Part shown: positions 14,808 to 41,236 of the stretch, in pieces
Layout of the letters: each line of letters begins with the position of its first letter
Position numbering within the stretch: the first letter of the stretch is position 1
Source of the DNA: Lautropia sp. SCN 69-89
GTDB lineage: Bacteria > Pseudomonadota > Gammaproteobacteria > Burkholderiales > Burkholderiaceae_E
Reading direction: 5' to 3'
NCBI GenBank assembly: GCA_001724855.1
Contig: MEED01000003.1
Coordinates: 1-58,297 of the forward strand
Length of the DNA stretch: 58,297 nt
Program-made: the position numbers and the translations under genes
The notes under the pieces: generated by a model
What the model saw: the letters and a program-made list of their open reading frames with translations, nothing else
Told to the model about the DNA's origin: nothing
Database searches by the model: none

Positions 14808-14836
14808 TTTACAGCGGGATCGTTGAGGAATAGAGT
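14808..14836 (+). promoter_or_regulatory. Sigma70-type promoter of the GntR-catabolic operon
   Basis: TTTACA (14808-14813) and TAGAGT (14831-14836) are separated by 17 bp, a good sigma70 arrangement, and the predicted transcription start is near 14843. The -35 box sits in the loop of a small inverted repeat, CCCGC/GCGGG (14803-14818). This is the only clear promoter seen ahead of the long plus-strand operon. Confidence 0.5.
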
Positions 14837-14837
14837 G

Positions 14838-14845
14838 TGTATACA
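14838..14845. promoter_or_regulatory. TGTATACA palindrome, probable GntR (FCD) operator
   Basis: The 8-bp palindrome TGTATACA lies just downstream of the -10 box and overlaps the predicted start of transcription. FadR/FCD-type GntR repressors often recognise TGTATACA-cored operators. The nearest such regulator starts about 115 bp downstream, so autoregulated repression of the operon is the likely arrangement (inference). Confidence 0.55.
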
Positions 14846-14960: not shown

Positions 14961-15641
14961 TTGGTTCCGTCGCTCGAGCCTGTCGATCGCCCCGTCGCCC
15001 TCGGCGAGCAGGTCTACGACACGCTGCGCGCATACCTGCGCGACGGCGCCATCCAGGCAGGCCAGCCGCTGCAGGAAGTGCAACTCGCCACGCAGCTGGG
15101 CGTCTCGCGCACCCCGGTGCGCGAGGCACTTGCGCGGCTGGCGAGCGAGGGCCTGCTGGTCTCGGGCGGCCGCAGCTACATGGTGCCCGAGCTCACGCTC
15201 GCCGACGTCGACGACATCTACGAGGTGCGCTTCCTGATCGAGCCGCCGGCGACCCGCCGCGTGGCCGAGCGTACCGCCGATCCCGAAGTGCGCGCGCCGA
15301 TCGAGGCGGCACTCGCCGAAGCGCGCGCGGCACACCGTGCCGGCGACGCCGCGGCCTTTCGCGAAAGCCACGTGCACTTCCGCAGTGCCTGGCTCGCGCT
15401 GGTGCCGAACCGGCGGCTGGTGAAAGTGATCGAGCAATACGCCGACCACATGCAGCGCATCCGGGCGCTGACGCTGGACGACCCCGACATCCGCGCCATC
15501 GTGCTCGCGGGCTTCGAGCGCCTGATCGAGGCGCTGCGGGCCGGCGACGCGGACGCGGCCGCCACCGCGATGCACGCGCACCTGGTCGAGGCCAAGCGCG
15601 CGTTCGTTACCGCCGTCGGCCTGGACAAGGCCACTGCCTGA
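14961..15641 (+). CDS. GntR-family (FCD) transcriptional regulator
   Basis: A 226-residue repressor-type regulator. The winged helix (LGEQVYDTLRAYLRDG, then LGVSRTPVREALARLASEGLL) is followed by an all-helical FCD ligand-binding domain with metal-ligand type histidines (ESHVHF, MHAHL). TTG at 14961 is chosen over an in-frame ATG at 14925 because GGAGG lies six bases before it; the ATG has no ribosome-binding site. The gene is first in the operon, 19 bp before the thiolase gene. The described iaa cluster also encodes a GntR regulator, so the effector may be indoleacetate or its CoA ester (inference). Confidence 0.9.
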   Translation: MVPSLEPVDRPVALGEQVYDTLRAYLRDGAIQAGQPLQEVQLATQLGVSRTPVREALARLASEGLLVSGGRSYMVPELTLADVDDIYEVRFLIEPPATRRVAERTADPEVRAPIEAALAEARAAHRAGDAAAFRESHVHFRSAWLALVPNRRLVKVIEQYADHMQRIRALTLDDPDIRAIVLAGFERLIEALRAGDADAAATAMHAHLVEAKRAFVTAVGLDKATA

Positions 15642-15660
15642 CACTCACCGGGAGGCCCCC

Positions 15661-16866
15661 ATGCCCTACAAGGCCCAGATCCCCTACGGCGCCTACTGGA
15701 GCACCCCGTTCGCGCGCTGGCAGGGCAGCTTCGCGAACCTGAACAGCATCGAGTTCGCCGCGCACGTCGCGCGCGCCGAGCTTGCGAAGCGTCGCATCGA
15801 CCCGAAGGTGCTCGACTACGGCGCGCTCGGCTTCTCGGTGCCGCAGAAGCATTCGTTCTACGGGCTGCCGTGGCTCACCGGCCTGATCGGCGCCGGGCAC
15901 GTGGGCGGCCCCACGCTGATGCAGGCCTGCGCCACCGGCGTGCGCACGCTGCTGGCCGCCGCCCAGGAGATCGAGGTCGGCATGGCCAGCGTCGCGCTGG
16001 CGATCAATTGCGACCGCACCTCCAACGGCCCGCACCTGTACTACCCCAATCCGCGCGGACCCGGTGGCACCGGCGCCGCCGAAGACTGGGTGATGGACAA
16101 CTTCAACTGCGACCCGCTCGGCCCGCACGCGATGCTGGTCACCGCCGAGAACGTCGCGAAGAAGCACGGCATCGCAACCGCTGCACAGCACGAAGTCGTG
16201 CTGCGCCGCGAGGAGCAGTACCGCGACGCGCTCGCCGACGGCGCGGCGTTCCTCGAGCGCTTCATGACCCTGCCCTTCGACGTGCCCGCGCCCGGCTATC
16301 GCAAGAGCGCCGGCACGCTCGAGGCCGACGAAGGCGTCTCGCGTTCCACGCCCGAAGGGCTGGCGCGGCTCGAGCCGGTGGCCAAGGGGGGCACGATCAC
16401 CTTCGGCGGCCAGACCCACCCGGCCGACGGCAACGCGGCCATCATCGTCACCAGCGCCGGGCGCGCGCGCGAACTCTCCAGCGACCCGAAGATCGCGGTG
16501 CGACTGCACGGCTTCGGGCTGGCGCGCGCGGCGCTCGCGCACATGCCCGAGGCAACGGTGCCGGCGGCGCAACGCGCGCTCGCACAGGCCGGTCGGTCGA
16601 TCTCGCAGATGGCGGCGATCAAGACGCACAACCCGTTCGCCGTCAACGACATCTATTTCGCGAAGGAAACCGGCGCCGACCTGCGATCGATGAACAACTA
16701 TGGCTGTTCGCTCGTCTGGGGCCATCCGCAGGCGCCGATGGGCACGCGCGCGATCATCGAGCTGATCGAGGAACTCGCCATCCGCGGCGGCGGCTTCGGA
16801 CTGTTCACCGGCTGCGCCGCCGGCGATACCGCGATGGCGGTGGTGATCGAGGTCGGCGACGCCTAG
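15661..16866 (+). CDS. Thiolase-family acyl-CoA acetyltransferase
   Basis: A thiolase-superfamily protein of 401 residues, expected to cleave a 3-oxoacyl-CoA with CoA in the last step of the pathway; if the indoleacetate assignment is right, this releases acetyl-CoA and 2-aminobenzoyl-CoA. The acylated Cys is at position 90 in QACATGVRT. The active-site region THNPFAVND, the histidine in WGHPQAPMGTR (about residue 358) and the second Cys in FTGCAAGDTA (about residue 385) follow the thiolase pattern. GGGAGG precedes ATG 15661. It corresponds to the beta-ketothiolase reported in the known iaa cluster. Confidence 0.88.
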   Translation: MPYKAQIPYGAYWSTPFARWQGSFANLNSIEFAAHVARAELAKRRIDPKVLDYGALGFSVPQKHSFYGLPWLTGLIGAGHVGGPTLMQACATGVRTLLAAAQEIEVGMASVALAINCDRTSNGPHLYYPNPRGPGGTGAAEDWVMDNFNCDPLGPHAMLVTAENVAKKHGIATAAQHEVVLRREEQYRDALADGAAFLERFMTLPFDVPAPGYRKSAGTLEADEGVSRSTPEGLARLEPVAKGGTITFGGQTHPADGNAAIIVTSAGRARELSSDPKIAVRLHGFGLARAALAHMPEATVPAAQRALAQAGRSISQMAAIKTHNPFAVNDIYFAKETGADLRSMNNYGCSLVWGHPQAPMGTRAIIELIEELAIRGGGFGLFTGCAAGDTAMAVVIEVGDA

Positions 16867-16897: not shown

Positions 16898-18448
16898 ATG
16901 CAGATGCACGCATGGATTCATCATCACGCCCGGCGCAACCCGGGGCGGCTGGCGATCCGCTTTCCCGGCCGCGATCTCGGCTACGCGGCACTCGCGCAGC
17001 GGGTCGACCGCTACGCGGCGGCGATGGCCGCCGCAGGCATCCGCCGTGGCAACTGCGTCGCGTACCTGGGCCTGAACAGCCCCGAAGAGATCGCATTGCT
17101 GTTCGCCTGCGCGCGGCTCGGCGCGATGTTCCTGCCGCTGAACTGGCGGCTGGCTGCGCCCGAGCACCGGCAGATCCTCGCCGATTGCCCGCCGTCGCTG
17201 CTGTTCGTCGAGCCGCAGTTCGTCGAACACGCCGAGGCGCTGCGCGCGTCGGTGGGCCGCGATGCGGCAGTCACCTGGGGCCAGTCCGGACCGGGCTGGA
17301 CCGATTGCGCCGCATTCCTGTCGCGCGGCAGCGAACAGCCGGCCGCTGGCGCGAGCGCGAGCGAGGCACGCGAAGACGGCGCCAATGCCGGCGCCCCGCT
17401 GCTCGTCTGCTACACCTCGGGATCCACCGGCAAGCCCAAGGGCGTCGTGCTCACGCAGGAGGCCATCGCCTGGAACGCGCTGAACAGCGCGGCGATGCAC
17501 GAGCTCACCGAAAACGACCGCGTCCTCACGACACTGCCGCTGTTCCACGTCGGTGGGCTCAACAACCAGACCACGCCAGCGCTGCGTGCCGGCTGCACCG
17601 TGGTGCTGCATCCGAAATTCGACGTCGAGGCCACTTTCGACGCGATCGAGCATGAGCGCATCACGCTCACCGTGCTCGTGCCGGCGCAGCTCGAGGCGAT
17701 GCTCGCGCATCCGCGCTGGAACAGTGCAGACTTCTCGAGCCTGCGGATGATCACCACCGGCTCGATGATCGTGCCCGAGCGCCTGATCCGCGCGGTGCAC
17801 GCACGCGGCGTGCCGCTGGTGCAGGTCTACGGCGCCACCGAAACCTGCCCGATCGCGGCCTGCCAGCAGGCGCAGGACGCGCTCCGCAAGGTCGGCTCGG
17901 CCGGCCGCGCCGCCGCGCACTGCGAACTGCGCATCGTCGGCGACGACGGCCGCGACGTCGCACAGGGCGCCACCGGCGAAATCCTGGTGCGCGGCCCGAA
18001 CCTGATGAGCGGCTACTGGAATGCGCCGCAGGCCACCGCGGCGGTGTTGACCGACGGCTGGTTCCACACCGGCGACATGGGGCACCTCGACACGGAAGGC
18101 TTCCTGTACGTCGACGGACGGCGCAAGGAAATGATCATCTCGGGCGGCGAGAACATCTATCCGGCCGAGATCGAGAACGTGCTCACCGAGTCGCCCGACA
18201 TCGCCGAGGCTTCGGTGGTGGGCTGGCCCGACCGTCGCTGGGGCGAGATCGCGGTCGCGGTCGTGGCCCCGCGTCCGGGCCGGCGCCTCGACGAGGCCAC
18301 CGTGCTCGGCCTGCTCGAAGGCCGCATCGCCCGCTTCAAGCATCCGAAGCGCGTGCTCTTCGTCGATGCGCTACCCAAGACGGCGCTCGGCAAGGTCCGT
18401 CGCGAGGAAGTGCGGCGCCTGGTCGCCGGCACTCCCGCCATCGGCTGA
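16898..18448 (+). CDS. iaaB: AMP-forming acyl/aryl-CoA ligase, probable indoleacetate-CoA ligase
   Basis: An ANL-superfamily ligase of 516 residues that activates a carboxylic acid to its CoA thioester. It shows the P-loop YTSGSTGKPKGV (about residues 170-181), the YGATETCP motif, the hinge GWFHTGDMGHLD/GRRKEMIISGGENIYP and the C-terminal catalytic lysine in LPKTALGKVRR. By operon position, directly after the thiolase and before the hydantoinase subunits, it matches the indoleacetate-CoA ligase IaaB of Aromatoleum aromaticum. Substrate is not readable from the sequence, and a second ligase at 37620-39224 is an alternative for the same role. ATG 16898 has GGGGAG upstream. Confidence 0.75.
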   Translation: MQMHAWIHHHARRNPGRLAIRFPGRDLGYAALAQRVDRYAAAMAAAGIRRGNCVAYLGLNSPEEIALLFACARLGAMFLPLNWRLAAPEHRQILADCPPSLLFVEPQFVEHAEALRASVGRDAAVTWGQSGPGWTDCAAFLSRGSEQPAAGASASEAREDGANAGAPLLVCYTSGSTGKPKGVVLTQEAIAWNALNSAAMHELTENDRVLTTLPLFHVGGLNNQTTPALRAGCTVVLHPKFDVEATFDAIEHERITLTVLVPAQLEAMLAHPRWNSADFSSLRMITTGSMIVPERLIRAVHARGVPLVQVYGATETCPIAACQQAQDALRKVGSAGRAAAHCELRIVGDDGRDVAQGATGEILVRGPNLMSGYWNAPQATAAVLTDGWFHTGDMGHLDTEGFLYVDGRRKEMIISGGENIYPAEIENVLTESPDIAEASVVGWPDRRWGEIAVAVVAPRPGRRLDEATVLGLLEGRIARFKHPKRVLFVDALPKTALGKVRREEVRRLVAGTPAIG

Positions 18449-18465: not shown

Positions 18466-20607
18466 ATGGCCCTCGAGATCGGTATCGACGTCGGCGGCAC
18501 CTTCACCGACTTCGTCGTCACCCGCGACGGCGCCGAGCCGGCGATCTTCAAGTCGCTGTCCACGCCGGCCGACCCGTCGATCGCGGTGGTCAACGGGTTG
18601 GCCGACATCGCGGCGAGCATGAATCCGCCGATGACGCTCGAAGCCTTCGCCCCGACGATCGACTCGATCGTGCACGGCACCACGGTGACCACCAACGCCA
18701 CGCTCACGCACACCGGCGCGAAGTGCGGCCTGCTCACCACTCAGGGGGTACGCGACGCGCTCGAGATGCGCCGCGGCATCCGCGAGGAGCAATACAACAA
18801 CCGCTACGCGAACGTGAAGCCGCTGGTGCCGCGCTACCTGCGCGCGGGCGTCCAGGGGCGCCTCGACCGGGTGGGCGCCGAGAGCGCGCCGCTCGACGTC
18901 GATGGCGTGCGCGAGGCGATCGAGCTGTTCCGGCAAGAGAACGTGCAGGCGGTGGCGATCTGCTTCATGAACTCGTTCGCCAACCCGGTGCACGAGCGCG
19001 CGGCCGCCGAGATCGTCCGGCGCGAGTTGCCCGACGCCTACCTGTCGGTATCCACCGACCTGCTGCCGTCGATCCGCTTCTACGAGCGGGTGAGCACCAC
19101 GGTGCTCAACGCATACGTCGGCCCGAAGCTGAACCACTATCTCGACCAGCTGGTCGGGCGCCTGAAGGGAATCGGCTTCGGCGGGCTGCTGCTGATCATG
19201 CAGTCCAACGGCGGCGTGATCTCGCCCCAGCTGGCACGCGAGAAGGCGGCGCTCACGCTGCTGTCGGGACCGGCCGGCGGTCCGGGCGCAGGCCTCTTCT
19301 ACGCGCGCGCGCACGGCTTCGACAAGTGCATCACCACCGACATGGGCGGCACCAGCTTCGAGGCGTCGGTCTCGGTGGGCGCGCCGATGATCAAGAACGA
19401 CGGCGAGATCGCGCGCCACAAACTCGCGCTGCCGATGCTCGACATCCACACGATCGGCGCGGGCGGCGGCTCGATCGGCTGGCTCGACGAAGGCGGGCTG
19501 CTGCGCATGGGCCCGCAGAGCGCCGGCGCCGACCCGGGCCCGGCCTGCTACGGAAAGGGCGGCACGCTGCCCACCACCACCGACGCCAACGTCGTGCTGG
19601 GCTATCTCGACCCGGCCTTCTTCGCCGGCGGCAGGATGAAGCTCGACGCGGCCGCCGCGCGGGCGGCGATCGACGAGCACATCGCGCGGCCGATGGGACT
19701 GACGGTCGAGGAGGCCGCGGCCGGCATGTACCGGGTCGCCTGCAACAACATGGCGCAGGGCGTGCGCGAAGTCACGATCAAGCGCGGCTTCGATCCGCGC
19801 GAGTTCCCGATCGTGCCGGCCGGGGGCGCCGGCCCGATCCACTCCTGCCTGATCTGCCACGAACTCGAGATCCCGCTTCAGGTCGTGCCTCGCGAATCCT
19901 CGGTGCTGTGCGCGTTCGGCATGCTGATGAGCGAACTGAAGCACGACTTCGTGCGCACCTTCGTCGCGCGTCTCGAATCGCTCGACTGGACGAAGCTCGT
20001 CGGCATCGTCGATGCGATGGCGCGCGACGGCGCGGCGCAACTGGTCGAGGAGCGCATCCCCGAGGCGCGTCGCCGCTACGAAGTCAAGTTCGACTGCCGC
20101 TACATCCGCCAGTACCACGAGGTGTCGTTCCTCGTGCCGCGCGCGCTGATCGACGCGCGCGACGCATCCGGCATCGCACGCGCCTTCCACGCCGAGCACA
20201 ACCGGCTCTACGGCTACTCGCTCGAGCAGGAGAACACGCCGATCGAGATCATCAACGTGCGCGTGCAGGCGATCGGCGCGGTCGACATGCCGGCCTACCG
20301 GAAGGACGAATGGTCCGGCGACGACGCCTCGCATGCACTGAAGGGCCGCCGCAGCGTCTACCTTCCCGAGACGCGCGCCTTCGCCGAGGTGCCGATCTAC
20401 GACGGGCACCGGATGCGCTTCGGCAACCGGATCGACGGCCCTGCGATGATCGAGCAGGCCACCACCGCGATCTTCGTGAGCGCCTCGTACGACTGCGTGG
20501 TCGACGCGCTGGGCTCGTTCGCCGTCTACCGCAAGGGGCGCGAAGACCTCTGCCGCGCGGCCTTCGGCCCTTCGACGCAGGCCGAGCCGGCCACGGTCGC
20601 CGCCTGA
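18466..20607 (+). CDS. Hydantoinase/oxoprolinase subunit A (HyuA-like), ATP-dependent ring opening
   Basis: A 713-residue ATP-binding subunit of the hydantoinase/ketone carboxylase family. It opens with the phosphate-binding motif EIGIDVGGTFTDFVV and later has TTDMGGTSFEASV and GAGGGSIGWLDEGG with SAGADPGPACYG, all standard for HyuA. Members drive hydrolysis of lactams or imides, or carboxylation of ketones, with ATP. With HyuB next, no third subunit, and a molybdenum hydroxylase in the operon, ATP-dependent hydrolysis of a cyclic lactam such as 2-oxo-indoleacetate is the best fit. A strong AAGGAGG precedes ATG 18466. Confidence 0.88.
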   Translation: MALEIGIDVGGTFTDFVVTRDGAEPAIFKSLSTPADPSIAVVNGLADIAASMNPPMTLEAFAPTIDSIVHGTTVTTNATLTHTGAKCGLLTTQGVRDALEMRRGIREEQYNNRYANVKPLVPRYLRAGVQGRLDRVGAESAPLDVDGVREAIELFRQENVQAVAICFMNSFANPVHERAAAEIVRRELPDAYLSVSTDLLPSIRFYERVSTTVLNAYVGPKLNHYLDQLVGRLKGIGFGGLLLIMQSNGGVISPQLAREKAALTLLSGPAGGPGAGLFYARAHGFDKCITTDMGGTSFEASVSVGAPMIKNDGEIARHKLALPMLDIHTIGAGGGSIGWLDEGGLLRMGPQSAGADPGPACYGKGGTLPTTTDANVVLGYLDPAFFAGGRMKLDAAAARAAIDEHIARPMGLTVEEAAAGMYRVACNNMAQGVREVTIKRGFDPREFPIVPAGGAGPIHSCLICHELEIPLQVVPRESSVLCAFGMLMSELKHDFVRTFVARLESLDWTKLVGIVDAMARDGAAQLVEERIPEARRRYEVKFDCRYIRQYHEVSFLVPRALIDARDASGIARAFHAEHNRLYGYSLEQENTPIEIINVRVQAIGAVDMPAYRKDEWSGDDASHALKGRRSVYLPETRAFAEVPIYDGHRMRFGNRIDGPAMIEQATTAIFVSASYDCVVDALGSFAVYRKGREDLCRAAFGPSTQAEPATVAA

Positions 20608-20628: not shown

Positions 20629-22317
20629 ATGAGCACCGCCGAATCCCCGAAGGTCGACCCGATCCTGCTGTCGGTCTACGCGCGCACCTTCCGCTCGATC
20701 ACCGACGAGATGAGCATCTCGATGGAGCAGACGACCCGGTCGCCGATCCTCTGCGAGGCCAAGGACTACGTCACCGGCCTGTACGACGGCGACGGCAACA
20801 TGCTCGAGCAGACCGAGAACCTGCCGATCCTCGCCTTCTCGCTGGCGCCGGTGTGCAAGTACATCAAGGAGTACTTCGGCGACGAGATCTACCCGGGCGA
20901 CGTGATCTTCCACAACGACGTGTTCAGCCTCGGCAACCAGAACAACGACGTCGCGGTGTTCAAGCCGGTCTTCCTCGGCGACAAGCTGGTCGCCTGGACC
21001 GCGGTGAAGGGCCACCAGGCCGACATCGGCGGCAACGTCGCGGGCGGCTACAACCCGAACGCGGTCGAGGTATGGCAGGAGGCGCTGCGCATTCCGCCGG
21101 TGAAGGTGGTCGAGCGCGGCAAGCTGCGTCGCGACGTCTGGAACCTGATCTTCGCCAACGTGCGGCTCGACATCGTGCAGCACGACATGAAGGCCGAGAT
21201 GGGCGCGTGCACGATCGGCGAGCGGCGCATGCTCGAGCTGCTGGCCAAGTACGGGGTCGAGAGCTACGAGACGCACAAGCAGGCGCTGTTCGACGCCACG
21301 CGCCGCATGATGGAGGCCGAGATCGCGAAGATCCCGAACGGCCGCTATTCGGGCGAAGGCTACGTCTACTACGACGGCCGGCACGAGGGGTCGAAGTTCA
21401 CGATCCGCGTCGACATCGAAGTCGAAGACCGCAAGATCCGCTTCGACTACTCGCGCACCGACCCGCAGACCAACGGCTTCGTCAACGGCACCTTCACCTC
21501 GAGCGCGTCGGCCACGATCCTCACGCTGCTGCAGATGGTGAACCCCGACATCCCGCACAACGAGGGGATGGTGCAGCCGATCGAGATCGTGATCCCGGAA
21601 GGCACGATCCTGAACGCCGCCTACCCGAAGGCCACCACCTTCGGCAACCACCTGTGCCCGCCCAACGCCGACGCGATCCAGCGCGCGCTCGCGCCGGTGC
21701 TGCCCGACCGCGTCACCGCCGGCTGGAACAACCTGCTCGCCTCGCTGACCACCGGCATCGATCCGCGCACCGGGGAGAAATACGTCGACATCGGCTTCAT
21801 GGGCCTGAAGGGCGGCTCGGGCGCGATGCTCGGCGCAGACGGCTACGACCACATCGGCATGATCGACGCCTCCGGCGGCGTGCTCGACCAGGACTACGAA
21901 ATGTTCGAGCAGCAGACGCCGCACACGCTGGTGCGCCACGAACTGCTCGCCGACTCGGCCGGAGCGGGCCAGTGGCGCGGCGGGCTGGGCGTGGAGACGA
22001 TCTTCGAGATCGGCTCGGACGACACGCAGCTGGTCACCTTCGGCGACGGCGACTTCGAGCCCGCCTTCGGCCTGTTCGGCGGCCGCGACGCGGGGCTGAA
22101 CTTCATCCGCCTGCACTACCCGGACGGGCGCACCGTGGTGCCGAGAAACAAGGACCTGATCACCGGCGTTCCGAAAGGCACGGTCTACCACCAGGTGGCC
22201 AGCGGCGGCGGCGGCTACGGCGACCCGAAGAAGCGCGACCGCAAGGTGCTCGCCGAGGAGGTGCGCAACGGCGTGATCTCGGCCGAGGCGGCCCGCGAGC
22301 TGTACGGGCTGGACTGA
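20629..22317 (+). CDS. Hydantoinase/oxoprolinase subunit B (HyuB-like)
   Basis: A 562-residue partner of the HyuA-like protein. The family features are an N-terminal segment FRSITDEMSISMEQTTRSPIL, the GDVIFHNDVF motif with HQADIGG shortly after (metal-binding region), and the glycine-rich C-terminus VASGGGGYGDPKKRD. The two subunits together form the ATP-dependent hydrolase. Its length is that of hydantoinase or caprolactamase-type B subunits rather than the much longer acetone carboxylase subunit. It starts 21 bp after the A subunit and ends 12 bp before the acyl-CoA dehydrogenase. Confidence 0.88.
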   Translation: MSTAESPKVDPILLSVYARTFRSITDEMSISMEQTTRSPILCEAKDYVTGLYDGDGNMLEQTENLPILAFSLAPVCKYIKEYFGDEIYPGDVIFHNDVFSLGNQNNDVAVFKPVFLGDKLVAWTAVKGHQADIGGNVAGGYNPNAVEVWQEALRIPPVKVVERGKLRRDVWNLIFANVRLDIVQHDMKAEMGACTIGERRMLELLAKYGVESYETHKQALFDATRRMMEAEIAKIPNGRYSGEGYVYYDGRHEGSKFTIRVDIEVEDRKIRFDYSRTDPQTNGFVNGTFTSSASATILTLLQMVNPDIPHNEGMVQPIEIVIPEGTILNAAYPKATTFGNHLCPPNADAIQRALAPVLPDRVTAGWNNLLASLTTGIDPRTGEKYVDIGFMGLKGGSGAMLGADGYDHIGMIDASGGVLDQDYEMFEQQTPHTLVRHELLADSAGAGQWRGGLGVETIFEIGSDDTQLVTFGDGDFEPAFGLFGGRDAGLNFIRLHYPDGRTVVPRNKDLITGVPKGTVYHQVASGGGGYGDPKKRDRKVLAEEVRNGVISAEAARELYGLD

Positions 22318-22329: not shown

Positions 22330-23463
22330 ATGGACTTCGAACTGAGCGTCGAGCAGAAGGCGGTGCGCGACGCGTTCGCGCGCTTCGCCGACCAGCGGAT
22401 CGCCCCGCAGGCCGCGGCGCTGGACGAAGCGCGCGCGTTCCCGCGCGAGCTGTTCGGCGAACTGGCGGCGCTCGGCCTGTTCGGGATGCGCTATCCGGAG
22501 GAGGTCGGCGGCAGCGGCATGGCGCTCACCGAGTTCTGCCTGGCGCTCGAGGAAATCGCGCGCGGCTCGATGTCGCTGGCCGGCGCCGCGGCGATGCAGT
22601 CGCTGATGGGCACCAAGTTCCTGCACATGCTGGGCAACGCCGACATCGTCGAGCGGCTGTTCAAGCCGGCGCTCGCCGGCGAGAAGATCGGCGCGATCTG
22701 CATGACCGAGCCCAACGCGGGCTCCGACCTCGGCTCGATCGCCACGGTCGCGAAGAAGGTCGACGGCGGCTACCTGCTCGACGGGCAGAAGACCTGGATC
22801 ACCTCGGCGCCGGTGGCCGACTTCTTCACCGTCTTCGCGCGCGCAGGCGAGGAGAAGAAACTCACGATCTTCCTCGTCGAGAAGCATTTCCCGGGCATCA
22901 CGGTCGGGCGCGAGATCCACAAGATGGGAGTCTGGGCGCTGCCGACCTCGGAAGTCGCGTTCTCGGGCTGCTTCGTTCCCGACAGCCACCGGCTGTCGAA
23001 GGAAGAAGGCGACGGCGAGGCCCACCTGCGCAAGACGCTGGCCGAGATCCGCATCATCACGGGTGCGATGGCGCTGGGCGTGGCGCGTGCCGCGCTGGCC
23101 GAGGCGGTGCGCTACGCGGGCGAGCGCAAGCAGTTCGGCAAGCCGATCGACCGCTTCCAGGCGATCCAGATGAAGCTCGCCGAGATGGCCACGGGGCTGG
23201 AAGCCGCGACGCACCTGGTGCGCTACGCCGCCTGGCTGCGCGACTCCGGGCGCCCGCATCACAAGGAGGCGGCGATGTGCAAGCTCTTCGCCACCGAGAC
23301 CGCCGCCGGCATCTGCGACCAGGCCGCGCGCGTGCTGGCCTCGTACGGCTACGCGATGGAATACCCGGTGCAGCGCTACCTGCGCGACGTGCGCTTCACG
23401 CTGATCGGCGGGGGCACCAGCGAAATCCTGAAACTGATCATCGCCAAGGAGGTCACCTCATGA
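22330..23463 (+). CDS. Acyl-CoA dehydrogenase
   Basis: An FAD-dependent acyl-CoA dehydrogenase of 377 residues with the usual ICMTEPNAGSDLGS and GQKTWITSA flavin segments and a YAGERKQFGKPIDRFQAIQMKLAEM helix region. In the proposed route it oxidises, and probably also decarboxylates, a benzylmalonyl-CoA type intermediate to a cinnamoyl-CoA. The classical catalytic glutamate position (YEGT in medium-chain enzymes) is Gly361 in LIGGGTSE; a glutamate at position 239 in LAEIRIITG is where isovaleryl-CoA and long-chain dehydrogenases carry their base. Its stop overlaps the mutase small-subunit start as ATGA. Confidence 0.9.
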   Translation: MDFELSVEQKAVRDAFARFADQRIAPQAAALDEARAFPRELFGELAALGLFGMRYPEEVGGSGMALTEFCLALEEIARGSMSLAGAAAMQSLMGTKFLHMLGNADIVERLFKPALAGEKIGAICMTEPNAGSDLGSIATVAKKVDGGYLLDGQKTWITSAPVADFFTVFARAGEEKKLTIFLVEKHFPGITVGREIHKMGVWALPTSEVAFSGCFVPDSHRLSKEEGDGEAHLRKTLAEIRIITGAMALGVARAALAEAVRYAGERKQFGKPIDRFQAIQMKLAEMATGLEAATHLVRYAAWLRDSGRPHHKEAAMCKLFATETAAGICDQAARVLASYGYAMEYPVQRYLRDVRFTLIGGGTSEILKLIIAKEVTS

Positions 23464-29207: not shown

Positions 29208-29213
29208 GCGGGA

Positions 29214-32929: not shown

Positions 32930-34069
32930 ATGAAACGCCAGCTGTTCGCCGCACTCGCCGTCGCGGGTGCGCTCGCTGCGGCCACGGCCAGCGCCGAGGT
33001 CACCATCGGCGTGTCGCTGGGCACCACGGGCCCCGGCTCGTCGCTCGGCATCCCGTACAAGAACGCGTTCCAGCTGCTGCCGAAGACGCTCGGCGGCGAG
33101 CCGGTGAAGTACGTCATCCTCGACGACGAATCCAAGCCCGACAACGCGGCCAAGAACGCGCGCAAGTTCGTCACCGAGGACAAGGTCGACGCGCTGATGG
33201 GCTCCAATGGCGTGCCCTCGGCGGCCGCGATGACCGCGGTCGCGGCCGAGTCGAAGACGCCGATGATCGCGCTCACCCCGGTGCCCCCGCTGGCACCCGA
33301 CCGGCTGCACTGGACCTTCGTGGTGCCGCAGACCACCGAACTGATGATGAGTGCAGTGGTCGAGCACATGAAGGCGCGCGGCATCAAGACCGTGGGCTAC
33401 ATCGGCTTCTCCGACACCTGGGGCGACCTCGTCTACAACGCGATCACCGCACTCGCGCCCTCCGGCGGCTACAAGGTGGTCACCAACGAACGCTACGGGC
33501 GCGCCGACACCAGCGTCACCGGACAGGTGCTCAAGGTCATGGCCGCCAACCCCGACGCGGTCATCGTCGGCGGATCGGGCTCGCCGGGTGCCACGCCGCA
33601 CATCGCGCTGGTCGAGCGCGGGTACAAGGGCCCGATCTACCACAACCACGGCACGGTCAACCTGCCGTTCATCCAGACCGGCAAGAAGGCCGTCGAGGGG
33701 GCGATCGCCCCGACCGGTGCGCTGATCGTCGCCGAGGAATTGCCCGACAACTTCCCGACGAAGGCGGTGTCGCTCGACTTCGTCAAGCGCTACGAAGCCG
33801 CATTCGGCCCCGGCAGCCGCAACGCGTTCGCCGGCTACAGCTTCGACGCCGTGCAGTTGCTCGAAGCCGCGGTGCCGGTAGCGCTGAAGAAGGCGAAGCC
33901 GGGCACGCCGGAGTTCCGCGAGGCGCTGCGCGACGCACTCGAGAACGTCCGCAACGTGGTCGGAACGCATGGCGTCTACAACATGAGCGCGGCCAACCAC
34001 AACGGGCTCGACGAGCGCGCGCGCGTGCTGGTGCGCGTCGAGAACGGCGCCTGGCGGCTGCTGAAGTAG
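32930..34069 (+). CDS. Liv/Urt-type ABC transporter, periplasmic substrate-binding protein 1
   Basis: A 379-residue periplasmic binding protein (Peripla_BP_6 type) with a cleavable signal, [20 protein letters not shown], followed by the mature [18 protein letters not shown] start. In proteobacteria this subfamily frequently binds aromatic acids rather than branched-chain amino acids. It is the first gene of a transporter module (binding protein, LivH, LivM-LivG fusion, LivF) inside the catabolic operon; the described iaa cluster also encodes a periplasmic ABC binding protein, making indoleacetate or a related acid the likely ligand. AAGGAG precedes ATG 32930. Confidence 0.9.
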
Positions 34070-34094
34070 GCACGACGGGCGGCGGCCGGCCTCG

Positions 34095-35138
34095 ATGAAC
34101 GCGGACATCGCTCTCTGGCTGGTGCAGGATGGCGTCACCAATGGCGCCATCTATGCGCTGCTGGCGCTGGCGCTGCTGCTGGTGTTCGCGGTCACCCGCG
34201 TGATCTTCGTGCCGCAGGGCGAGTTCATCTCGTACGCGGCGCTGTCGCTGGGCCTGCTGCAGGCAGGGCAGGTGCCCGGGACCGTCTGGGTGCTGGTGGG
34301 TGGCGGGCTGCTCGCGGCCGGGCTCGACGTCGCGGCGGCCCTGCGCGAAAACGCGCGCCACCGGCTGCCGCGCATCCTGCTGGTCTATGTCGCGGTACCG
34401 GTCGCGATGGCGGCGCTGGCCTGGTGGGCGGCGCCACGCAAGCTCGACATGTGGGCGCAGGTGCTGATCGTGATCGGCCTGGTGGTGCCGCTCGGGCCGA
34501 TCCTCTATCGCGTTGCCTACCAGCCGCTGGCCAACGCGTCGGTGCTGGTGCTGTTCATCGTGTCGATGGCCGCGCACTATGCCCTCACCGGGCTGGGCCT
34601 GGTGTTCTTCGGCGGCGAGGGGCTGCGCTCGGCCGCCTTCTCCGACGCGAAGCTGAAGCTCGGCGTGCTCGACATCACCGCGCAGAGTGCCTGGGTGGTG
34701 TCGGCCAGCGTCGTCGGCATGATCGCACTGTGGCTGTTCTTCGAGCGCACGCTGTATGGCAAGGCGCTGCGCGCCACCGCGATCAACCGCGTCGGCGCAC
34801 GGCTGGTCGGCATTCCGGCCGAGCTGTCGGGCAGCCTCAGCTTCCTGGTCGCGGCGTTCATCGGCGCGGCCTCGGGGGTGCTCATCGCGCCGATCACCAC
34901 GATCTATTACGACACCGGCCTGATGATCGGCCTGAAGGGGTTCGTCGGCGCGATCCTCGGGGGCATGGCGAGCTATCCGCTGGCGGCGGTTGGCGCAGTG
35001 GCGGTCGGGCTGCTGGAGTCGTTTTCGTCGTTCTGGGCAAGTGCGCTCAAGGAGTCGATCGTCTTCACGCTGATCATTCCCGTGCTGGTCTGGCGCTCTC
35101 TCACGTCGCGCCATCACGTCGAGGAAGAGGAAGAGTGA
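34095..35138 (+). CDS. Liv-type ABC transporter permease 1 (LivH-like)
   Basis: A 347-residue inner-membrane permease with about eight or nine hydrophobic segments. It begins [20 protein letters not shown] and has the conserved [24 protein letters not shown] region near the C-terminus, both typical of LivH. The acidic tail HHVEEEEE is unusual. Its stop overlaps the GTG start of the LivM-LivG fusion. Confidence 0.9.
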
Positions 35139-36898
35139 TCGGCCGGCATCGCGCGCTCGCGCTGTTTCTCGTCGCCGTCGCGCTGGCCCCGCTCGTGCTG
35201 CCGGCGTTCTACGTCACGCTGCTCAACTACATCGGGCTGGCGACGCTGGTGGCGCTCGGGCTGGTGCTGCTCACCGGCGTGGCCGGCGTGGTGTCGTTCG
35301 GCCAGCAGGCCTTCGTCGGGCTGGCCGCTTACGCGACCGCCGCGCTCACCGTGCCGATGGGGTTGTCGCCGTGGCTGGGGCTCGTCGCCGGCCTCGCCCT
35401 CACCGCCGCGTTCGCGCTGGTGCTCGGCGCGATCACGCTGCGCCTGTCGGGACACTACCTGTCGATCAGCACGATCGCCTGGGGCATCGCGCTCTACTAC
35501 CTGTTCGGCAACCTGCCCGAACTGGGCCAGTACAGCGGCATCGACAACCTGCCGCCGGTCGCGGTGGCGGGTTTCGCGCTCGAAAGCGGACGCGAATCCT
35601 ACTACCTGATCTGGCTGGTCACCGCCGCGGCGCTGCTGGCCGCGCGCAACCTGCTCGACTCGCGCACCGGCCGCGCGATTCGCGCGCTGCGCTTTCGAGG
35701 CGTGATGGCCGAGAGCTTCGGCGTCGATACTGCGGCGCTGAAGCTGCTGGTGTTCCTGTACGCCGCGCTGCTCGCCGGCCTCTCCGGCTGGCTGTACGCG
35801 CATTTCCTGCGCTTCGTGAGCCCGCACGCGTTCGGCGTCAACGCGGGCATCGACTACCTGTTCATGGCGGTGATCGGCGGCGCAAGCCAGGTCTGGGGCG
35901 CGCTGATCGGCGCATCGGTACTCACGGTGCTCAAGGAGTGGTTGAAAGACCTCCTTCCGGCGCTGTTCCAGAAGTCGGGCAACTACGAGATCGTCGTCTT
36001 CGGCGTGCTGATGACGCTGCTGCTGCACCGCACGCGCGACGGGCTGGCGCCGGCCTTTGCACGGCTGCTGCCGGCCGGTTCGACTCGCGCGCGCCCGCCC
36101 GACGCGCCCGCGCTGCCGCGGCGCACGCAGCCGGCGCGCGGGCAGCCGCTGTTGCAGCTGCGTGGCGTGCAAAAGCGCTTCGGCGGCCTGCTCGCGGTCA
36201 ACGACATGGCCTTCGCGATGAACAGCGGCGAAATCCTCGGCCTGATCGGACCCAACGGCGCGGGCAAGAGCACGCTGTTCAACCTGGTCACGGGCGTGCT
36301 GGCGGCCGACGCCGGCGAGATCCGCTTTCTCGGCGAGCCGATCGAGCGCGCCACGCAACGCGAAATCGCGCGCCGCGGCATCGCGCGCACCTTCCAGCAC
36401 GTGAACCTGGTCAGCACGATGTCGGTCATCGAGAACGTCGCGATCGGCACGCACCTGCGCGGCGCCAAGGGCAGCCTCGCGGCAATGCTGCACGCCGACC
36501 GCGACGAGGAACGGCTGCTGCTGGCAGAGGCCGCGCGCCAGCTCGATCGCGTCGGCCTGGGCGAGCACCTGTACGAGCCGGCCGGCAGCCTGCCGCTCGG
36601 ACAGCAGCGCATCGTCGAGATTGCCCGCGCGCTGTGCGCCGACCCGGTGCTGCTGCTGATGGACGAACCGGCCGCGGGGCTGCGCTACGGCGAGAAGCAG
36701 GCGCTGGCCGCGTTGCTGCGCAAGCTGCGCGACGAGGGCATGAGCATCCTTCTGGTCGAGCACGACATGGAATTCGTCATGGGCCTGGTCGACCGGCTGG
36801 TGGTGATGGACTTCGGCGAGAAGCTCGCCGAGGGACTGCCCGCCGAGATCCAGGCGAATCCGGCGGTGCTCGAGGCCTATCTCGGAGGCATCGAATGA
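35135..36898 (+). CDS. Fused Liv-type permease-ATPase 1 (LivM-LivG)
   Basis: A 587-residue fusion of a LivM-type permease (about residues 1-310, with [16 protein letters not shown] and [12 protein letters not shown]) and a LivG-type ATPase (about residues 340-587, Walker [10 protein letters not shown] at about residue 372, [13 protein letters not shown] signature, [10 protein letters not shown] Walker B). A Pro/Arg-rich linker joins them. GTG 35135 overlaps the livH stop as GTGA and follows GAGGAAGAGGA. LivF follows with a 4-bp overlap. Confidence 0.92.
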
Positions 36899-37623
36899 GC
36901 GCGCTGCTCGAAGTCGACGAACTGCGCGTGTTCTACCGCAAGGTCGAGGCGCTGCACCGCGTCTCGCTGCGGGTCGAGGAAGGTTCCATCGTCACCGTGA
37001 TCGGACCCAACGGCGCGGGCAAGACCACGCTTCTGGGCGCGATCATGGGCCTGTTGCCGGCCAGCGGCGCGATCCGCTACCTGGGCGCCGACGTCGGCGC
37101 ACTCGCGGTGGAGGCGCGCGTGGCGCGCGGACTGTGCCTGGTGCCCGAACGACGCGAACTGTTCGGCGAACTGTCGGTGGAAGACAACCTGAGACTGGGA
37201 GCATTCCAGCGCGTGCGCCACGGCGAGCGCGGCGCCGATTCCGACCTCGGCGAGGTCTACCAGCGGTTTCCGCGCCTCGCCGAGCGCCGCACGCAGTTGG
37301 CCGCAACGCTGTCGGGCGGCGAACGGCAGATGCTCGCGCTCGGGCGTGCCCTGATGGGCAAGCCGCGGCTGCTGATGCTCGACGAGCCCAGCCTGGGACT
37401 GGCACCGCGGATCGTGCGCGAGATCATGCACATCGTGGCCGACCTCAGGAAGACCGGCGTGTCGATCCTGCTGGTCGAACAGAATGCGCGCGCCGCGCTG
37501 CAGGTCGCCGATCACGGCTACGTGCTGGAAACCGGCGAAATCGCGCTCGAGGGTCCGTCGTCTTCGCTCGCCGGCAACGCGCGGGTCGTCGAGTCGTACC
37601 TGGGCTTCGCGAGCAGGCCATGA
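36895..37623 (+). CDS. Liv-type ABC transporter ATPase 1 (LivF)
   Basis: A 242-residue ATPase with Walker A GPNGAGKTT, the LivF segment LCLVPERRELFGELSVEDNL, signature LSGGERQMLALGRALM and Walker B LLMLDEPSLGLAP. It pairs with the LivG half of the upstream fusion. ATG overlaps the fusion stop (ATGA), and its own stop overlaps the CoA ligase start, so uptake and activation are translationally linked. Confidence 0.93.
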   Translation: MSALLEVDELRVFYRKVEALHRVSLRVEEGSIVTVIGPNGAGKTTLLGAIMGLLPASGAIRYLGADVGALAVEARVARGLCLVPERRELFGELSVEDNLRLGAFQRVRHGERGADSDLGEVYQRFPRLAERRTQLAATLSGGERQMLALGRALMGKPRLLMLDEPSLGLAPRIVREIMHIVADLRKTGVSILLVEQNARAALQVADHGYVLETGEIALEGPSSSLAGNARVVESYLGFASRP

Positions 37624-39224
37624 ACCGCGTCGCACAGAGCACGACTGCAGCGCCGGCGTTGCCGAAGGTGCACCCGACGGTGGTCGCGATGCTGGCCGAG
37701 GCGGCTGCCCGCGACCCGCGCGCCGAAGCGCTGGTCTGCGGAGAACGGCGCCTCGAATACGGCGGCTACCTCGCTTGCGTTGCAGGCTTCGCCGCCGAAC
37801 TGGAGTCGCTCGGTGCTCGCGGGGAGCGCGTCGCGACGCTGCTGCCGAACTCGATCGACGCCTGCATCGCCGCGTTCGGCGCGCTCGCCGCTGGCGCCCA
37901 GCAGGTACCGCTGAACCCGCTGCTCGCGCCGCGCGAGGTCGAGTTCATTCTTCGCGACGCCGCGCCGGTCGTGCTCGTGGTCGACGAGGCGCTCGCCGCG
38001 ACGCTTTCGCCGATCGCAGCGGAAGCAGGCATCCGGCACACGATCGTCGTCGGGGCGCAGGCGCGCCGGCTCGACCGCGACTGCGCGCGCGGCGCGGCGC
38101 TGCCCGCGCCGCCGTCGTCCGATGCGCTCGCACTGCTCCAATACACCGGCGGCACGACCGGCCGGCCCAAGGGCGTCGACCTCACGCACCGCTCGATCTC
38201 GATCAACGTCTCGCAGCGCGAGGCGCTGCTGCCGAGCCGCCCCGGCGACCGGATCATCTGCATGATGCCGATCTCGCATGCCTACGGGATGGCGATGGGG
38301 CTCTTCCTGGCCGCGTATTGCGGCGGCACGCTGGTGATCCTGCCGCGCTACCAGCCTGCCGAAGTGCTCGAGACCGTCGCGCGCGAGCGGATCACCGTCT
38401 TTCCGGGCAGCCCGACGGTCTTCGTCGGCCTGATGGCGCATCCCGACTTCCTCCGCACCGACTGGTCGTCGGTGCGCATCTGCCACTCGGGGGCGGCGCC
38501 GCTGTCGGCGCAGACGCTGCGCCGCTGGCGCGACGCGGTCGGCGCGCCGGTCCACGAAGGCTACGGGCAGACCGAGGCCGGTCCGGTCCTTTCCTTCAAT
38601 CCGGCGGGCGGGACGATCAAGCCCGGTTCGGTCGGCGTGCCGGTGCCGCTCACCGAGATCGAGATCGTCGATACCGGGACCGGTCGCCGCGTGCTGGCGC
38701 CCGGAGAGCGCGGCGAGATTCGCGCGCGCGGGCCGCAATGCATGGCCGGTTATCGCAACCTGCCGGCCGAGACCGCCGAAGCGCTGCGTGACGGCTGGCT
38801 GTACACCGGCGACATCGGCGAGTTCGACGCCGACGGCTACCTGTACATCCGCGATCGCAAGAAGGACATGGCGATCGTCGGCGGCTACAACGTCTATCCG
38901 CGCGAGGTCGAGGAGGCGCTGTTCCTGCATCCCGAAGTGGCCGAAGCGGCGGTGGTCGGCGTCCCCGACGAATATCGCGGCGAGACGCTGGCAGCCTTCG
39001 TCGTGCTGCGCGACGGCGCGCAGGCGCACGCGGAGGTGCTCGCCGCACACTGCGCCGCCAACCTCGCGAGATACAAGGTGCCGGCGCGTATCGAGATCGT
39101 CGACACGCTGCCCCGAACTTCGGCGAACAAGACCGACAAGAACACCCTGCGCTCGATCGCGTCGGCCGGCACGGCCCGGCCGTCATCCCAGCCCGAACCG
39201 GCCCGCTCCGGGAGGAATCCGTGA
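37620..39224 (+). CDS. AMP-forming acyl/aryl-CoA ligase 2
   Basis: A 534-residue ANL ligase with the P-loop LQYTGGTTGRPKGV, GYGQTEAGP and the hinge GWLYTGDIGEFDADGYLYIRDRKKDMAIVGG split around residues 395-425. The C-terminal catalytic lysine motif is TSANKTDKNTLR; the glycine usually before this lysine is Asn. Directly coupled to the transporter ATPase gene upstream and to the beta-oxidation fusion downstream, it probably activates the imported acid or an intermediate. Whether this or the ligase at 16898-18448 acts on indoleacetate cannot be settled from sequence. Confidence 0.87.
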   Translation: MNRVAQSTTAAPALPKVHPTVVAMLAEAAARDPRAEALVCGERRLEYGGYLACVAGFAAELESLGARGERVATLLPNSIDACIAAFGALAAGAQQVPLNPLLAPREVEFILRDAAPVVLVVDEALAATLSPIAAEAGIRHTIVVGAQARRLDRDCARGAALPAPPSSDALALLQYTGGTTGRPKGVDLTHRSISINVSQREALLPSRPGDRIICMMPISHAYGMAMGLFLAAYCGGTLVILPRYQPAEVLETVARERITVFPGSPTVFVGLMAHPDFLRTDWSSVRICHSGAAPLSAQTLRRWRDAVGAPVHEGYGQTEAGPVLSFNPAGGTIKPGSVGVPVPLTEIEIVDTGTGRRVLAPGERGEIRARGPQCMAGYRNLPAETAEALRDGWLYTGDIGEFDADGYLYIRDRKKDMAIVGGYNVYPREVEEALFLHPEVAEAAVVGVPDEYRGETLAAFVVLRDGAQAHAEVLAAHCAANLARYKVPARIEIVDTLPRTSANKTDKNTLRSIASAGTARPSSQPEPARSGRNP

Positions 39225-41236
39225 CCACGACCTTCTCCAATCCCTTGCTGCAACCGCCCACGCGCCCGATGCCGAAACGCGTGGCGATCATCGGCGCCGG
39301 TTCGATCGGCCCCGACATCGGCTACTACCTGAAGAGCGCGCTGCCGTCGCTGTCGCTCACGCTGGTCGACCTGCAGCAGCCGGCGCTCGATGCGGCGATC
39401 GCGCGACTGCGCGGCTACGCGGAGAAGGCGGTCGCGCGCGGCAAGATGAAGCCCGCCGACAAGGACGCCGTGCTGGCCGACATCGTCGGCACGACCGACT
39501 ACGACGCGATCGCCGGCTGCGACTGGGTGCTCGAGGCGGCCACCGAGAACCTTGCGCTCAAGCGCCGGATCTTCGCCGAGGTCGAGGCGCGCGTGGCGCC
39601 CGACGCGATCATCACCTCGAACACGAGCTCGCTGCCGGCGGCGCGCATCTTCTCGGAGCTGCGCGAGAAGCGGCGCGCCACGGTCACGCACTTCTTCGCG
39701 CCGGCCTGGCGCAACCCGGCGGTCGAGGTGATCGACTGGCCGGGCGCCGATCCCGCGCTCGTCGCGCACCTGCGGCGCTTCTTCTGCGAGACGGGCAAGC
39801 TGCCGCTGGTCACGGCGGACGCGCCGTGCTTCATGCTCGACCGGATCTTCGACAACTGGTGCAACGAGTCGGCGCTGCTGCTCGAACATGCGAGCGCCGG
39901 CGAAATCGACAGCGTCGCGGCCGACTACGTGCACGCCGGGCCGTTCTTCGTGCTGAACCTGGCGCGCGGCAACCCGATCATCGTCGAGACCAACACGCTG
40001 CAGGCCGACGAAGAGGGCGAACACTACCGGCCGGCGCCGATCTTCCGGTCGGTGGACAACTGGATCACGATCAAGCCGAACCAGCGGCTCGAGGTCGCGC
40101 CCGACACGGCGGCGGCGGTGCGCGACCGCCTGCTCGGCGTGCTGTTTTCGCAATCGGTGGACATCCTGGATCGCGGGATCGGCGAGGCGGCCGACCTCGA
40201 CCTGGGCTGCCGCGTTGCGCTCGGCTTCCGGCGCGGCCCGCTCGAGCTGATGCACGCGCTCGGCGAGCAGGAGAGCGCGCGCGTGCTCGAGCGCTTCGGG
40301 CGCGAGCGGCCCGGCATGCCGATGCCGGAGCGCCCGCTCGCCGACTACCAGCGCTTCGAGCGCCATGTGCTGGTGGACGACCTCGACGGGGTCAAGGTGA
40401 TCACGCTGCGGCGCCCCGAGGCGCTGAACGCGCTGCACGACGAGATGACCGACGAGATCCTCGCGGTGATCCGGCGCCACGAGGGCGACGACGCGGTCGC
40501 CGGTTTCGTCATCACCGGCTACGGCACGCGCGCGTTCTGCGCGGGCGCCGACATCGGGCGATTTCCTTCGATGCTCGGCGACGCCGACGCGTCGGCGCAA
40601 TACGCGCGTGATTGCTCGCGCCTGCTCGTGCACCTCGACGCGATGGCCAAGCCCGTGGTCGCCGCGCTCAACGGCATGGCGCTGGGCGGCGGCTTCGAGC
40701 TGGCGATGCGATGCCACGCGCTGGTGGCGACGCGCGATGCGTGGATGCAGCTGCCCGAGGTGACGCTGGGCATCCTGCCCGGCATCGGCGCGATGGTGGT
40801 GCCCTACCGGCGCTGGCCCGCGGCCGCCGCCGTCTTCCACGACATGCTGCGGCGCGGCGAGCGACTGAAGGCGACGCGCGCGCACGAACTCGGCATCGTC
40901 GACTCGCTGGCCGACGACCCGCGCTCGCTGATGCTCGAGGCGGTGCAACGGGTGCGCGCGCTCGCGGGGCGGCGAATGCCGATTCCCGACCGCCCGGTCG
41001 AGATTCCGCCGTTCGCGAACCAGGCGTCGACCGCCGCCGGCGGCATGGCGCTCAGCCGCGCTACCGTGGAGCTGATCGAGCGCGCGGTACGCGAGGCGGC
41101 CGCGGCGCCCACGCTCGCGGCAGCGCTCGAGATCGGCTACCGCGCATTCGGCACGAGCGCCTGCACCGCGGCCGCGCGCGAAGGCATCGCCGCCTTCCAC
41201 GAGCGGCGCGCACCCAACTTCACGAAGACCGGCTGA
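39221..41236 (+). CDS. 3-hydroxyacyl-CoA dehydrogenase / enoyl-CoA hydratase fusion
   Basis: A 671-residue bifunctional beta-oxidation enzyme. The N-terminal dehydrogenase (about residues 18-370) has the NAD motif IIGAGSIGPDIGYY and the catalytic histidine in THFFAPAW. The C-terminal crotonase domain (about residues 378-671) has the oxyanion-hole segment FCAGADIGRF and both catalytic glutamates, in GGGFELAM and PEVTLGILPG. The order is the reverse of FadB. A hydratase/dehydrogenase fusion is reported in the known iaa cluster. It would convert the cinnamoyl-CoA type intermediate to the 3-oxo thioester. GTG 39221 follows GGGAGGA and overlaps the ligase stop. Confidence 0.9.
   Translation: MTTTFSNPLLQPPTRPMPKRVAIIGAGSIGPDIGYYLKSALPSLSLTLVDLQQPALDAAIARLRGYAEKAVARGKMKPADKDAVLADIVGTTDYDAIAGCDWVLEAATENLALKRRIFAEVEARVAPDAIITSNTSSLPAARIFSELREKRRATVTHFFAPAWRNPAVEVIDWPGADPALVAHLRRFFCETGKLPLVTADAPCFMLDRIFDNWCNESALLLEHASAGEIDSVAADYVHAGPFFVLNLARGNPIIVETNTLQADEEGEHYRPAPIFRSVDNWITIKPNQRLEVAPDTAAAVRDRLLGVLFSQSVDILDRGIGEAADLDLGCRVALGFRRGPLELMHALGEQESARVLERFGRERPGMPMPERPLADYQRFERHVLVDDLDGVKVITLRRPEALNALHDEMTDEILAVIRRHEGDDAVAGFVITGYGTRAFCAGADIGRFPSMLGDADASAQYARDCSRLLVHLDAMAKPVVAALNGMALGGGFELAMRCHALVATRDAWMQLPEVTLGILPGIGAMVVPYRRWPAAAAVFHDMLRRGERLKATRAHELGIVDSLADDPRSLMLEAVQRVRALAGRRMPIPDRPVEIPPFANQASTAAGGMALSRATVELIERAVREAAAAPTLAAALEIGYRAFGTSACTAAAREGIAAFHERRAPNFTKTG

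Follow-up and report, generated by a model that had tools for sequence, protein, structure and literature searches.

Anaerobic breakdown of the auxin indoleacetate is encoded by the iaa genes, and a passage of PMC9613470 presents Aromatoleum evansii KB740 as the strain for which the pathway was described. Passages of PMC8360864 give indoleacetyl-coenzyme A (CoA) as the activated form that starts the pathway and report a GGG motif, in place of YEG, for all IaaF enzymes; a figure legend there includes a truncated iaaD in the published Aromatoleum lettering. Here we describe an iaa-type locus in a stretch of 58,297 nucleotides (the window) from Lautropia sp. SCN 69-89. We hold it highly probable that the window contains a complete iaa-type cluster in which the molybdenum (Mo) hydroxylase belongs to a second, exchanged type (type II), carried as a cassette with its own MoaD-like gene. 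This assessment covers the whole explanation: the iaa assignment, the cassette exchange and the inferred roles of the MoaD-like protein and of a nearby MeaB-XdhC fusion. The window is the start of its contig in a host genome of 3.81 Mb (70 contigs, 95.6% complete).

Genes were called from codon use together with Pfam and NCBIfam scans of the window's frames. The named iaa loci used for comparison are the best 80 of 292 relatives, and all locus counts cover this nearest part. Six of the 80 are from Aromatoleum (A. anaerobium, A. toluolicum, A. toluvorans, A. toluclasticum and two of A. evansii KB740); A. aromaticum EbN1 was absent from the loci returned, and the Aromatoleum comparisons rest on these other strains. 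The core genes are as follows, all on the + strand, with identities given to the Aromatoleum loci.

14961–15641, +, GntR/FCD regulator (Pfam FCD, GntR; 68–71% to the six loci)
15661–16866, +, thiolase, IaaA-like (Pfam; 77–80%)
16898–18448, +, CoA ligase 1 (AMP ligase), IaaB-like (Pfam; 63–68%)
18466–20607, +, HyuA-like subunit (Pfam; 84–85%)
20629–22317, +, HyuB-like subunit (Pfam; 91–92%)
22330–23463, +, IaaF, decarboxylating (2-aminobenzyl)malonyl-CoA dehydrogenase (GGG motif; 85–87%)
23460–23888, +, B12-binding mutase subunit, IaaGH (Pfam B12-binding; TIGR00640 over cut-off)
23885–25498, +, catalytic mutase subunit, IaaGH (Pfam MM_CoA_mutase; TIGR00641 over cut-off)
25518–26384, +, type II hydroxylase flavin adenine dinucleotide (FAD) subunit (Pfam; single type II clade in tree)
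26365–26850, +, type II hydroxylase 2Fe-2S (FeS) subunit (Pfam; tree)
26847–29207, +, type II hydroxylase Mo-binding subunit (Pfam, in the longer frame 26508–29207; trees)
29214–29465, +, MoaD-like sulfur carrier with C-terminal PPIAGG (Pfam ThiS; sequence; linkage to the cassette)
29511–30701, +, CaiB-type CoA-transferase, IaaL-like (Pfam; 71–74%)
39221–41236, +, 3HCDH-ECH (hydratase/dehydrogenase) fusion, IaaP-like (Pfam; 69–70% to five loci)
47035–48192, +, binding protein SBP2, IaaM orthologue (Pfam; 62–65%)

We take the HyuA-like and HyuB-like subunits to be the IaaCE hydrolase and the hydratase/dehydrogenase fusion to be IaaP, the letters in both cases being our assumption. The order of the core genes recurs in the named iaa loci, far above chance. 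Eleven window genes outside the hydroxylase (regulator, thiolase, ligase, HyuA, HyuB, IaaF, the two mutase subunits, CoA-transferase, SBP2 and the hydratase/dehydrogenase fusion) are 62–92% identical to the six Aromatoleum loci, the fusion being compared in five; both mutase subunits lie at 82–89%. The window's acyl-CoA dehydrogenase has GGG and no YEG (it reads ...RFTLIGGGTSEI...), and the same motif is found in 80 of 80 named relatives. Core orthology and this motif support the assignment to anaerobic indoleacetate degradation made in a preliminary description of this DNA, and all the genes named there are present as open frames with strong family matches. That description held that best matches to another pathway would speak against it: the mutase and HyuA/HyuB match Aromatoleum iaa (at 82–89% and 84–92%), and the Mo hydroxylase occupies the iaa slot but is only 49–63% identical by subunit to Aromatoleum and is of a different type. 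The CoA-transferase is indeed twelfth from the thiolase, as had been pointed out, but the match of this position to the letter of IaaL is a coincidence. It is reached by counting the MoaD-like gene, which Aromatoleum lacks there (0 of 6 loci), and the published lettering includes the truncated iaaD.

The hydroxylase comes in two types. Typing was possible for 64 of the 80 loci, the other 16 being without a Mo subunit and untyped. Identity of this subunit to that of the window is bimodal, with 16 loci at 88–95% (type II) and 48 at 49–58% (type I), the latter including all six Aromatoleum loci. This division appears again in the FAD and FeS subunits and is missing from IaaF, mutase and CoA-transferase. 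Between the window and Aromatoleum the hydroxylase is 49–51% (FAD), 59–63% (FeS) and 56–57% (Mo) identical. In a tree of the hydroxylase the two types form sister clades, each clade and their union being supported at 99–100, with outgroups that come from three genomes and have long, perhaps misplaced branches. The window hydroxylase lies inside the type II clade and outside type I (100/100 support).

Fixed differences between the types occupy 121 of 773 columns in the Mo subunit, 12 of 288 in the FAD subunit and 4 of 162 in the FeS subunit. Several of those in the Mo subunit (216–226, 322–335 and 717–734) lie close to residues that, in the alignment with 4-hydroxybenzoyl-CoA reductase (1rm6), fall in its active-site region, the roles of these residues being presumed. 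Q215, a conserved Gln, and E729, aligned to Glu 726 of 1rm6, do not vary among the rows that cover them. Because these two are kept while nearby residues differ, both types look active, with pocket walls that would differ.

The types follow the history of their neighbours only in part. On a tree of IaaF, mutase and HyuB (quick method; of 60 rows that covered more than 60% of the query length, 59 remained after the too gappy L050 was dropped) they need 11 changes, 10 of them forced by the starred branches. The approximately unbiased (AU) test rejects type II as one clade (p-AU 6.6e-77). The type label is hardly more clustered on this core tree than by chance, 71 of 500 shuffles being as low. 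Single-gene trees need 7 changes for the thiolase, 8 for HyuA, 11 for HyuB, 12 for IaaF, 11 for the mutase and 8 for the CoA-transferase, whereas the trees of all three hydroxylase subunits need 1 each.

The borders of the exchange can be placed by comparison with close relatives. L021 and L022, both metagenome-assembled genomes (MAGs), are type I and have an IaaF about 96% identical to that of the window. In 200-base steps, DNA identity to them is 87–98% up to 25.3 kb and 80–82% in the next step; it is 57–74% over 25.5–29.1 kb, the MoaD-like gene has no counterpart, and identity is again 94–95% from 29.5 kb. Identity to the type II neighbours L020 and L023 is 84–100% all through. Since the identity borders fall there, the exchanged block comprises the three subunits and MoaD. 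Trees and borders together indicate that this four-gene cassette has repeatedly supplanted type I or been supplanted by it.

Candidate vehicles and donors were sought. Thirteen plasmid records match IaaF, all below 60%, and none in the collection carries IaaF itself. A hydroxylase relative at E 1e-200 occurs in only 3 of 300 genomes of the order, the window's own included, which offers no outside donor. An assembly error behind the swap is unlikely: several separate MAGs and an isolate record (Ramlibacter lithotrophicus, L095) have type II, and the complete genomes L026 and L054 have type I.

Other departures from the usual order were seen in the named loci. L085, a type II locus, has the CoA-transferase before the hydroxylase. 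The usual HyuA/HyuB is missing beside IaaF in L087, L091 and L097 (also L089 and L093), and three of those loci have a 31–37% relative upstream on the other strand, which hints at a second swapped slot.

The MoaD-like gene belongs to type II. All 13 type II loci whose sequence continues past the hydroxylase have it behind that enzyme; L085, L090 and L092, which stop at or within the Mo subunit, are left out of this count. None of the 42 type I loci with a full-length subunit has it. With the usual gene order, the space after the hydroxylase is 0–260 bases in type I and 277–340 in type II. Nine independent pairs on the core tree all agree (9/9; sign test 0.0039). Moreover, MoaD distances track those of the hydroxylase (partial r 0.68) above those of the core (0.29) across 13 taxa, L053 being left out. 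The protein has the ThiS/MoaD fold family match and a C-terminal Gly-Gly, reaching 65.9 bits for TIGR01682, just below the cut-off of 66.15; the PPIAGG end is present in 13 of 14 sequences, the fourteenth match (L053) being cut short.

The host also carries a moeA-moaD-moaE set of its own, and no moaE was found in L001–L099. Some MoaD match exists in 112 of 399 genomes of the order, but matches of at least 93% occur only in the window genome and G014, both with type II iaa. As a donor elsewhere, the next match in these genomes is only 46% identical and stands beside moaE, and 18 of 18 next best outside matches adjoin moaE. The MoaD-like protein is most likely a dedicated sulfur carrier for the molybdopterin of type II; a different metal for this enzyme is only a possibility.

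Further downstream lies a gene that joins two kinds of maturation factor. The role of MeaB proteins is to protect B12 mutases; that of XdhC proteins is to load sulfurated Mo cofactor into enzymes of the xanthine-dehydrogenase type. The genes concerned are these.

51827–53023, +, NnrS (denitrification-associated), a conserved neighbour (Pfam; synteny)
53011–53700, -, XdhC C-terminal (Rossmann) domain as a separate gene (Pfam XdhC_C)
53697–54815, -, MeaB GTPase fused to the XdhC N-domain (Pfam MeaB 19–247, XdhC_CoxI 280–347)

Each half of the fusion scores over the cut-off of its Pfam family, and the GTPase and XdhC motifs are conserved. XdhC is split over two genes, its C-domain being encoded by the neighbouring gene, which overlaps the fusion by four bases. 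Among 18 iaa genomes, 10 have an intact fusion, at 11 places in all and with both hydroxylase types; A. evansii has two copies, and A. toluclasticum also has it. At 8 of the 11 places the C-domain gene is adjacent, and at the other three it is several kilobases off. The order SBP2, NnrS, XdhC_C, fusion is common to A. evansii and the window. Its placement was established in 8 of the 10 genomes: in 6 the fusion is on the iaa contig within about 13–38 kb, and in 2 it is on other contigs. Because all 18 genomes searched carry iaa, the tie of the fusion to the pathway is drawn from neighbourhood. The pathway has one B12 mutase and one Mo hydroxylase, and the fusion most likely serves these two enzymes.

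The other nine loci from the fusion search showed no MeaB and XdhC motif in one frame, and among plasmids 157 records match MeaB, none covering 80% of the fusion. A separate MeaB-like gene (about 49–62%), 1–3.3 kb in the locus, stands upstream of iaa in L031, L035, L038, L040, L043, L044, L053, L065, L072, L076 and others; in these relatives the fusion was not demonstrated. The two iaa loci of A. evansii KB740 (L062 and L066) are both type I, and the same genome has two fusions.

We infer the reactions of the cluster from the published pathway; gene content, core orthology and the IaaF motif are direct observations. Indoleacetate would be taken up via SBP2/IaaM and activated by the ligase. The three-subunit Mo hydroxylase would hydroxylate C2 of the indole ring with water-derived oxygen, and the HyuAB-type ATP-dependent hydrolase would open the ring. 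The CaiB-type transferase would then move the CoA ester position within the molecule, the B12 mutase would rearrange it and IaaF would decarboxylate it oxidatively, and the hydratase/dehydrogenase fusion and thiolase would release 2-aminobenzoyl-CoA and acetyl-CoA.

A further entry point may be provided by the gene directly after SBP2, which is present in 12 of the 80 named loci.

48217–51804, +, indolepyruvate ferredoxin oxidoreductase family, fused form (NF009588, NF009589 over cut-off)

A passage of PMC13290082 reports that the wider family converts indolepyruvate to indoleacetyl-CoA in gut acetogens. As this product is the activated form that starts the pathway, the cluster probably also takes tryptophan, the oxidoreductase feeding in indolepyruvate derived from it as indoleacetyl-CoA. 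On the side of the product, one host contig carries genes for benzoyl-CoA reductase subunits A, B and D, dienoyl-CoA hydratase, 6-hydroxy dehydrogenase and 4-hydroxybenzoyl-CoA reductase, all over cut-off. Among 10 genomes searched, TIGR02260 is over cut-off in 8 and BoxB is found in 9; the 14 controls have neither. BoxB is in the host as well.

Several other explanations have to be set against an exchanged cassette with these roles. An ancestor might have held both types side by side and lost one or the other differentially, without any exchange. The types are sister clades, for which duplication within the pathway would be a natural origin, and A. evansii keeps two iaa loci to this day. Yet no named locus was seen with both types, and both A. 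evansii loci are type I. Five other genomes checked whole and the window's own hold one type each, the next best subunit being only 34–36% identical. The identity borders match the ends of the cassette, and at least 10 changes would take as many independent losses; we consider such an ancestry quite improbable. Type II might instead act on another substrate or another form of it (free indoleacetate rather than indoleacetyl-CoA), and so mark a pathway variant. The 121 fixed differences in the Mo subunit, as against 12 and 4 in its partners, many of them by active-site-aligned residues, could be read in this way, but the remaining core genes are the same in both types and Q215 and E729 never vary in rows with sequence there, which leaves a variant unlikely. 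For the MoaD-like gene, one may ask whether it is a passenger that travels with the cassette and is not needed by the hydroxylase. The host's own moeA-moaD-moaE set may make an extra copy redundant. A passenger would hardly be kept in 13 of 13 type II loci, with PPIAGG in 13 of 14 sequences, and without a close homologue outside iaa in the 399 genomes, nor would its distances be expected to follow the hydroxylase more than the core (0.68 versus 0.29), and we find this reading doubtful. Finally, the cluster as a whole might degrade another aromatic or succinate-type compound. The extra opine-dehydrogenase-like, 3-hydroxyacyl-CoA dehydrogenase, second ligase and second transporter genes have no place in the published pathway, but with a core orthologous to iaa of A. 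evansii KB740 and the GGG motif in IaaF this is very improbable.

The preferred reading, a complete iaa cluster with an exchanged type II cassette and dedicated maturation factors, also has observations that weigh against it. The exchange is deduced from quick trees, and recombination may have blended histories within the core tree. In the trees of thiolase, HyuA and CaiB the types are more tightly grouped than in almost every shuffle (1–5 of 500 as low), so they have some history in common with these neighbours. The host frames scanned yielded no BcrC, one open reading frame being without a match. The fusion was not seen in eight of the 18 iaa genomes. In Ca. Desulfobacillus a further set of Mo-hydroxylase-like genes stands between the XdhC C-domain gene and the fusion, so that the XdhC half may act for other enzymes; a second HyuA/HyuB pair occupies that interval in G012 and G017, which speaks against an exclusive tie to iaa.

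The remaining genes of the locus include a module between the CoA-transferase and the hydratase fusion (30793–39224).

30793–31872, +, opine-dehydrogenase-like (octopine-dehydrogenase-like) protein, optional module (PDB 1bg6, E 3e-35; 5 of 80 named loci)
31869–32867, +, 3-hydroxyacyl-CoA dehydrogenase, optional module (Pfam, PDB; 5 of 80 named loci)
32930–34069, +, binding protein SBP1 (Pfam, longer frame; 42–44% to Aromatoleum)
34095–35138, +, LivH-like permease 1 (Pfam)
35135–36898, +, LivM-LivG fusion 1 (Pfam BPD_transp_2 and ABC_tran, longer frame)
36895–37623, +, LivF-like ATPase 1 (Pfam, longer frame)
37620–39224, +, CoA ligase 2 (Pfam; 34% to ligase 1)
41312–42277, +, TctC-type binding protein (Pfam)
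43328–44365, 44362–46164 and 46218–46916, +, second LIV-type transporter (Pfam; 61–69% to transporter 1)

The near-identical locus L020 is without this module at the same place, and the module occurs with both hydroxylase types (type I in L021, L022 and L033; type II in L028, L029 and the window). A function was sought for it and no assignment was found. An alpha/beta hydrolase gene lies on the opposite strand after the TctC protein. The preliminary description had listed the MoaD-like gene, the opine-dehydrogenase-like gene, the second ligase and a transporter as additions relative to Aromatoleum, and all are extras of the window. Its gene list holds but overlooked the 3-hydroxyacyl-CoA dehydrogenase, and the cluster does not end at 41236, as it had proposed, but runs on to about 54.8 kb. 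Nor is the binding protein within its range, SBP1, the orthologue of IaaM. That protein is SBP2, which is 62–65% identical to the protein after the CoA-transferase in 6 of 6 Aromatoleum loci, against 42–44% for SBP1. Beside the iaa cluster, at 3572–11531, are nosL, ABC (ATP-binding cassette) genes, nosD, nosZ and nosR. With nosZ, nosR, nosD, nosL and NnrS in the window, the host is a probable denitrifier.

Two old versions of an enzyme would have changed places in one operon slot some ten times or more, with the neighbouring genes untouched and the same small cofactor gene moving along each time. This makes testable the question of why a working Mo enzyme is replaced by its sister. In the MeaB-XdhC fusion, the maturation of a B12 enzyme is physically and directly connected with that of a Mo enzyme. 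The locus would also place the breakdown of auxin, and probably of tryptophan, in denitrifying Burkholderiales so far known from MAGs. More tentatively, and with considerable doubt, iaa may have cofactor logistics of its own: two interchangeable hydroxylases, the type II enzyme self-sufficient with its own MoaD, and MeaB-XdhC maturing both the B12 and the Mo enzyme. MoaD would then be brought along perhaps because the type II cofactor is built differently, with another metal or sulfur supply. The literature searched describes neither the two types nor the MoaD link nor the fusion, a weak negative as the founding papers (Ebenau-Jehle 2012, Schuhle 2016) were not covered, and no paper there named both MeaB and XdhC.

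Among known systems, the iaa loci of A. evansii KB740 and other Aromatoleum have the same core genes in the same order as the window, but the other hydroxylase type and no MoaD. The opine-dehydrogenase-like/3-hydroxyacyl-CoA dehydrogenase/transporter/ligase module and the indolepyruvate oxidoreductase after SBP2 further set the window apart from them. 4-Hydroxybenzoyl-CoA reductase, of the xanthine-dehydrogenase family, has the same three subunits and domains as the window hydroxylase, 1rm6_A being the best solved match (E 6.7e-116). Against the enzymes of that family, however, the window hydroxylase reaches no NCBIfam equivalog cut-off and forms a clade of its own with type I. A passage of PMC6365974 describes aorD and aorE, MoaD-like genes in the tungsten aldehyde oxidoreductase operon of A. 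aromaticum, for which the authors suggest a cofactor role. As far as that passage goes, the likeness is a MoaD-like gene (or genes) within the operon of one enzyme; the enzyme family and metal are different, and the window has a single MoaD, tied to an exchanged cassette. Compared with the known MeaB and XdhC chaperones, the window has the two fused in one chain, with the XdhC C-domain apart.

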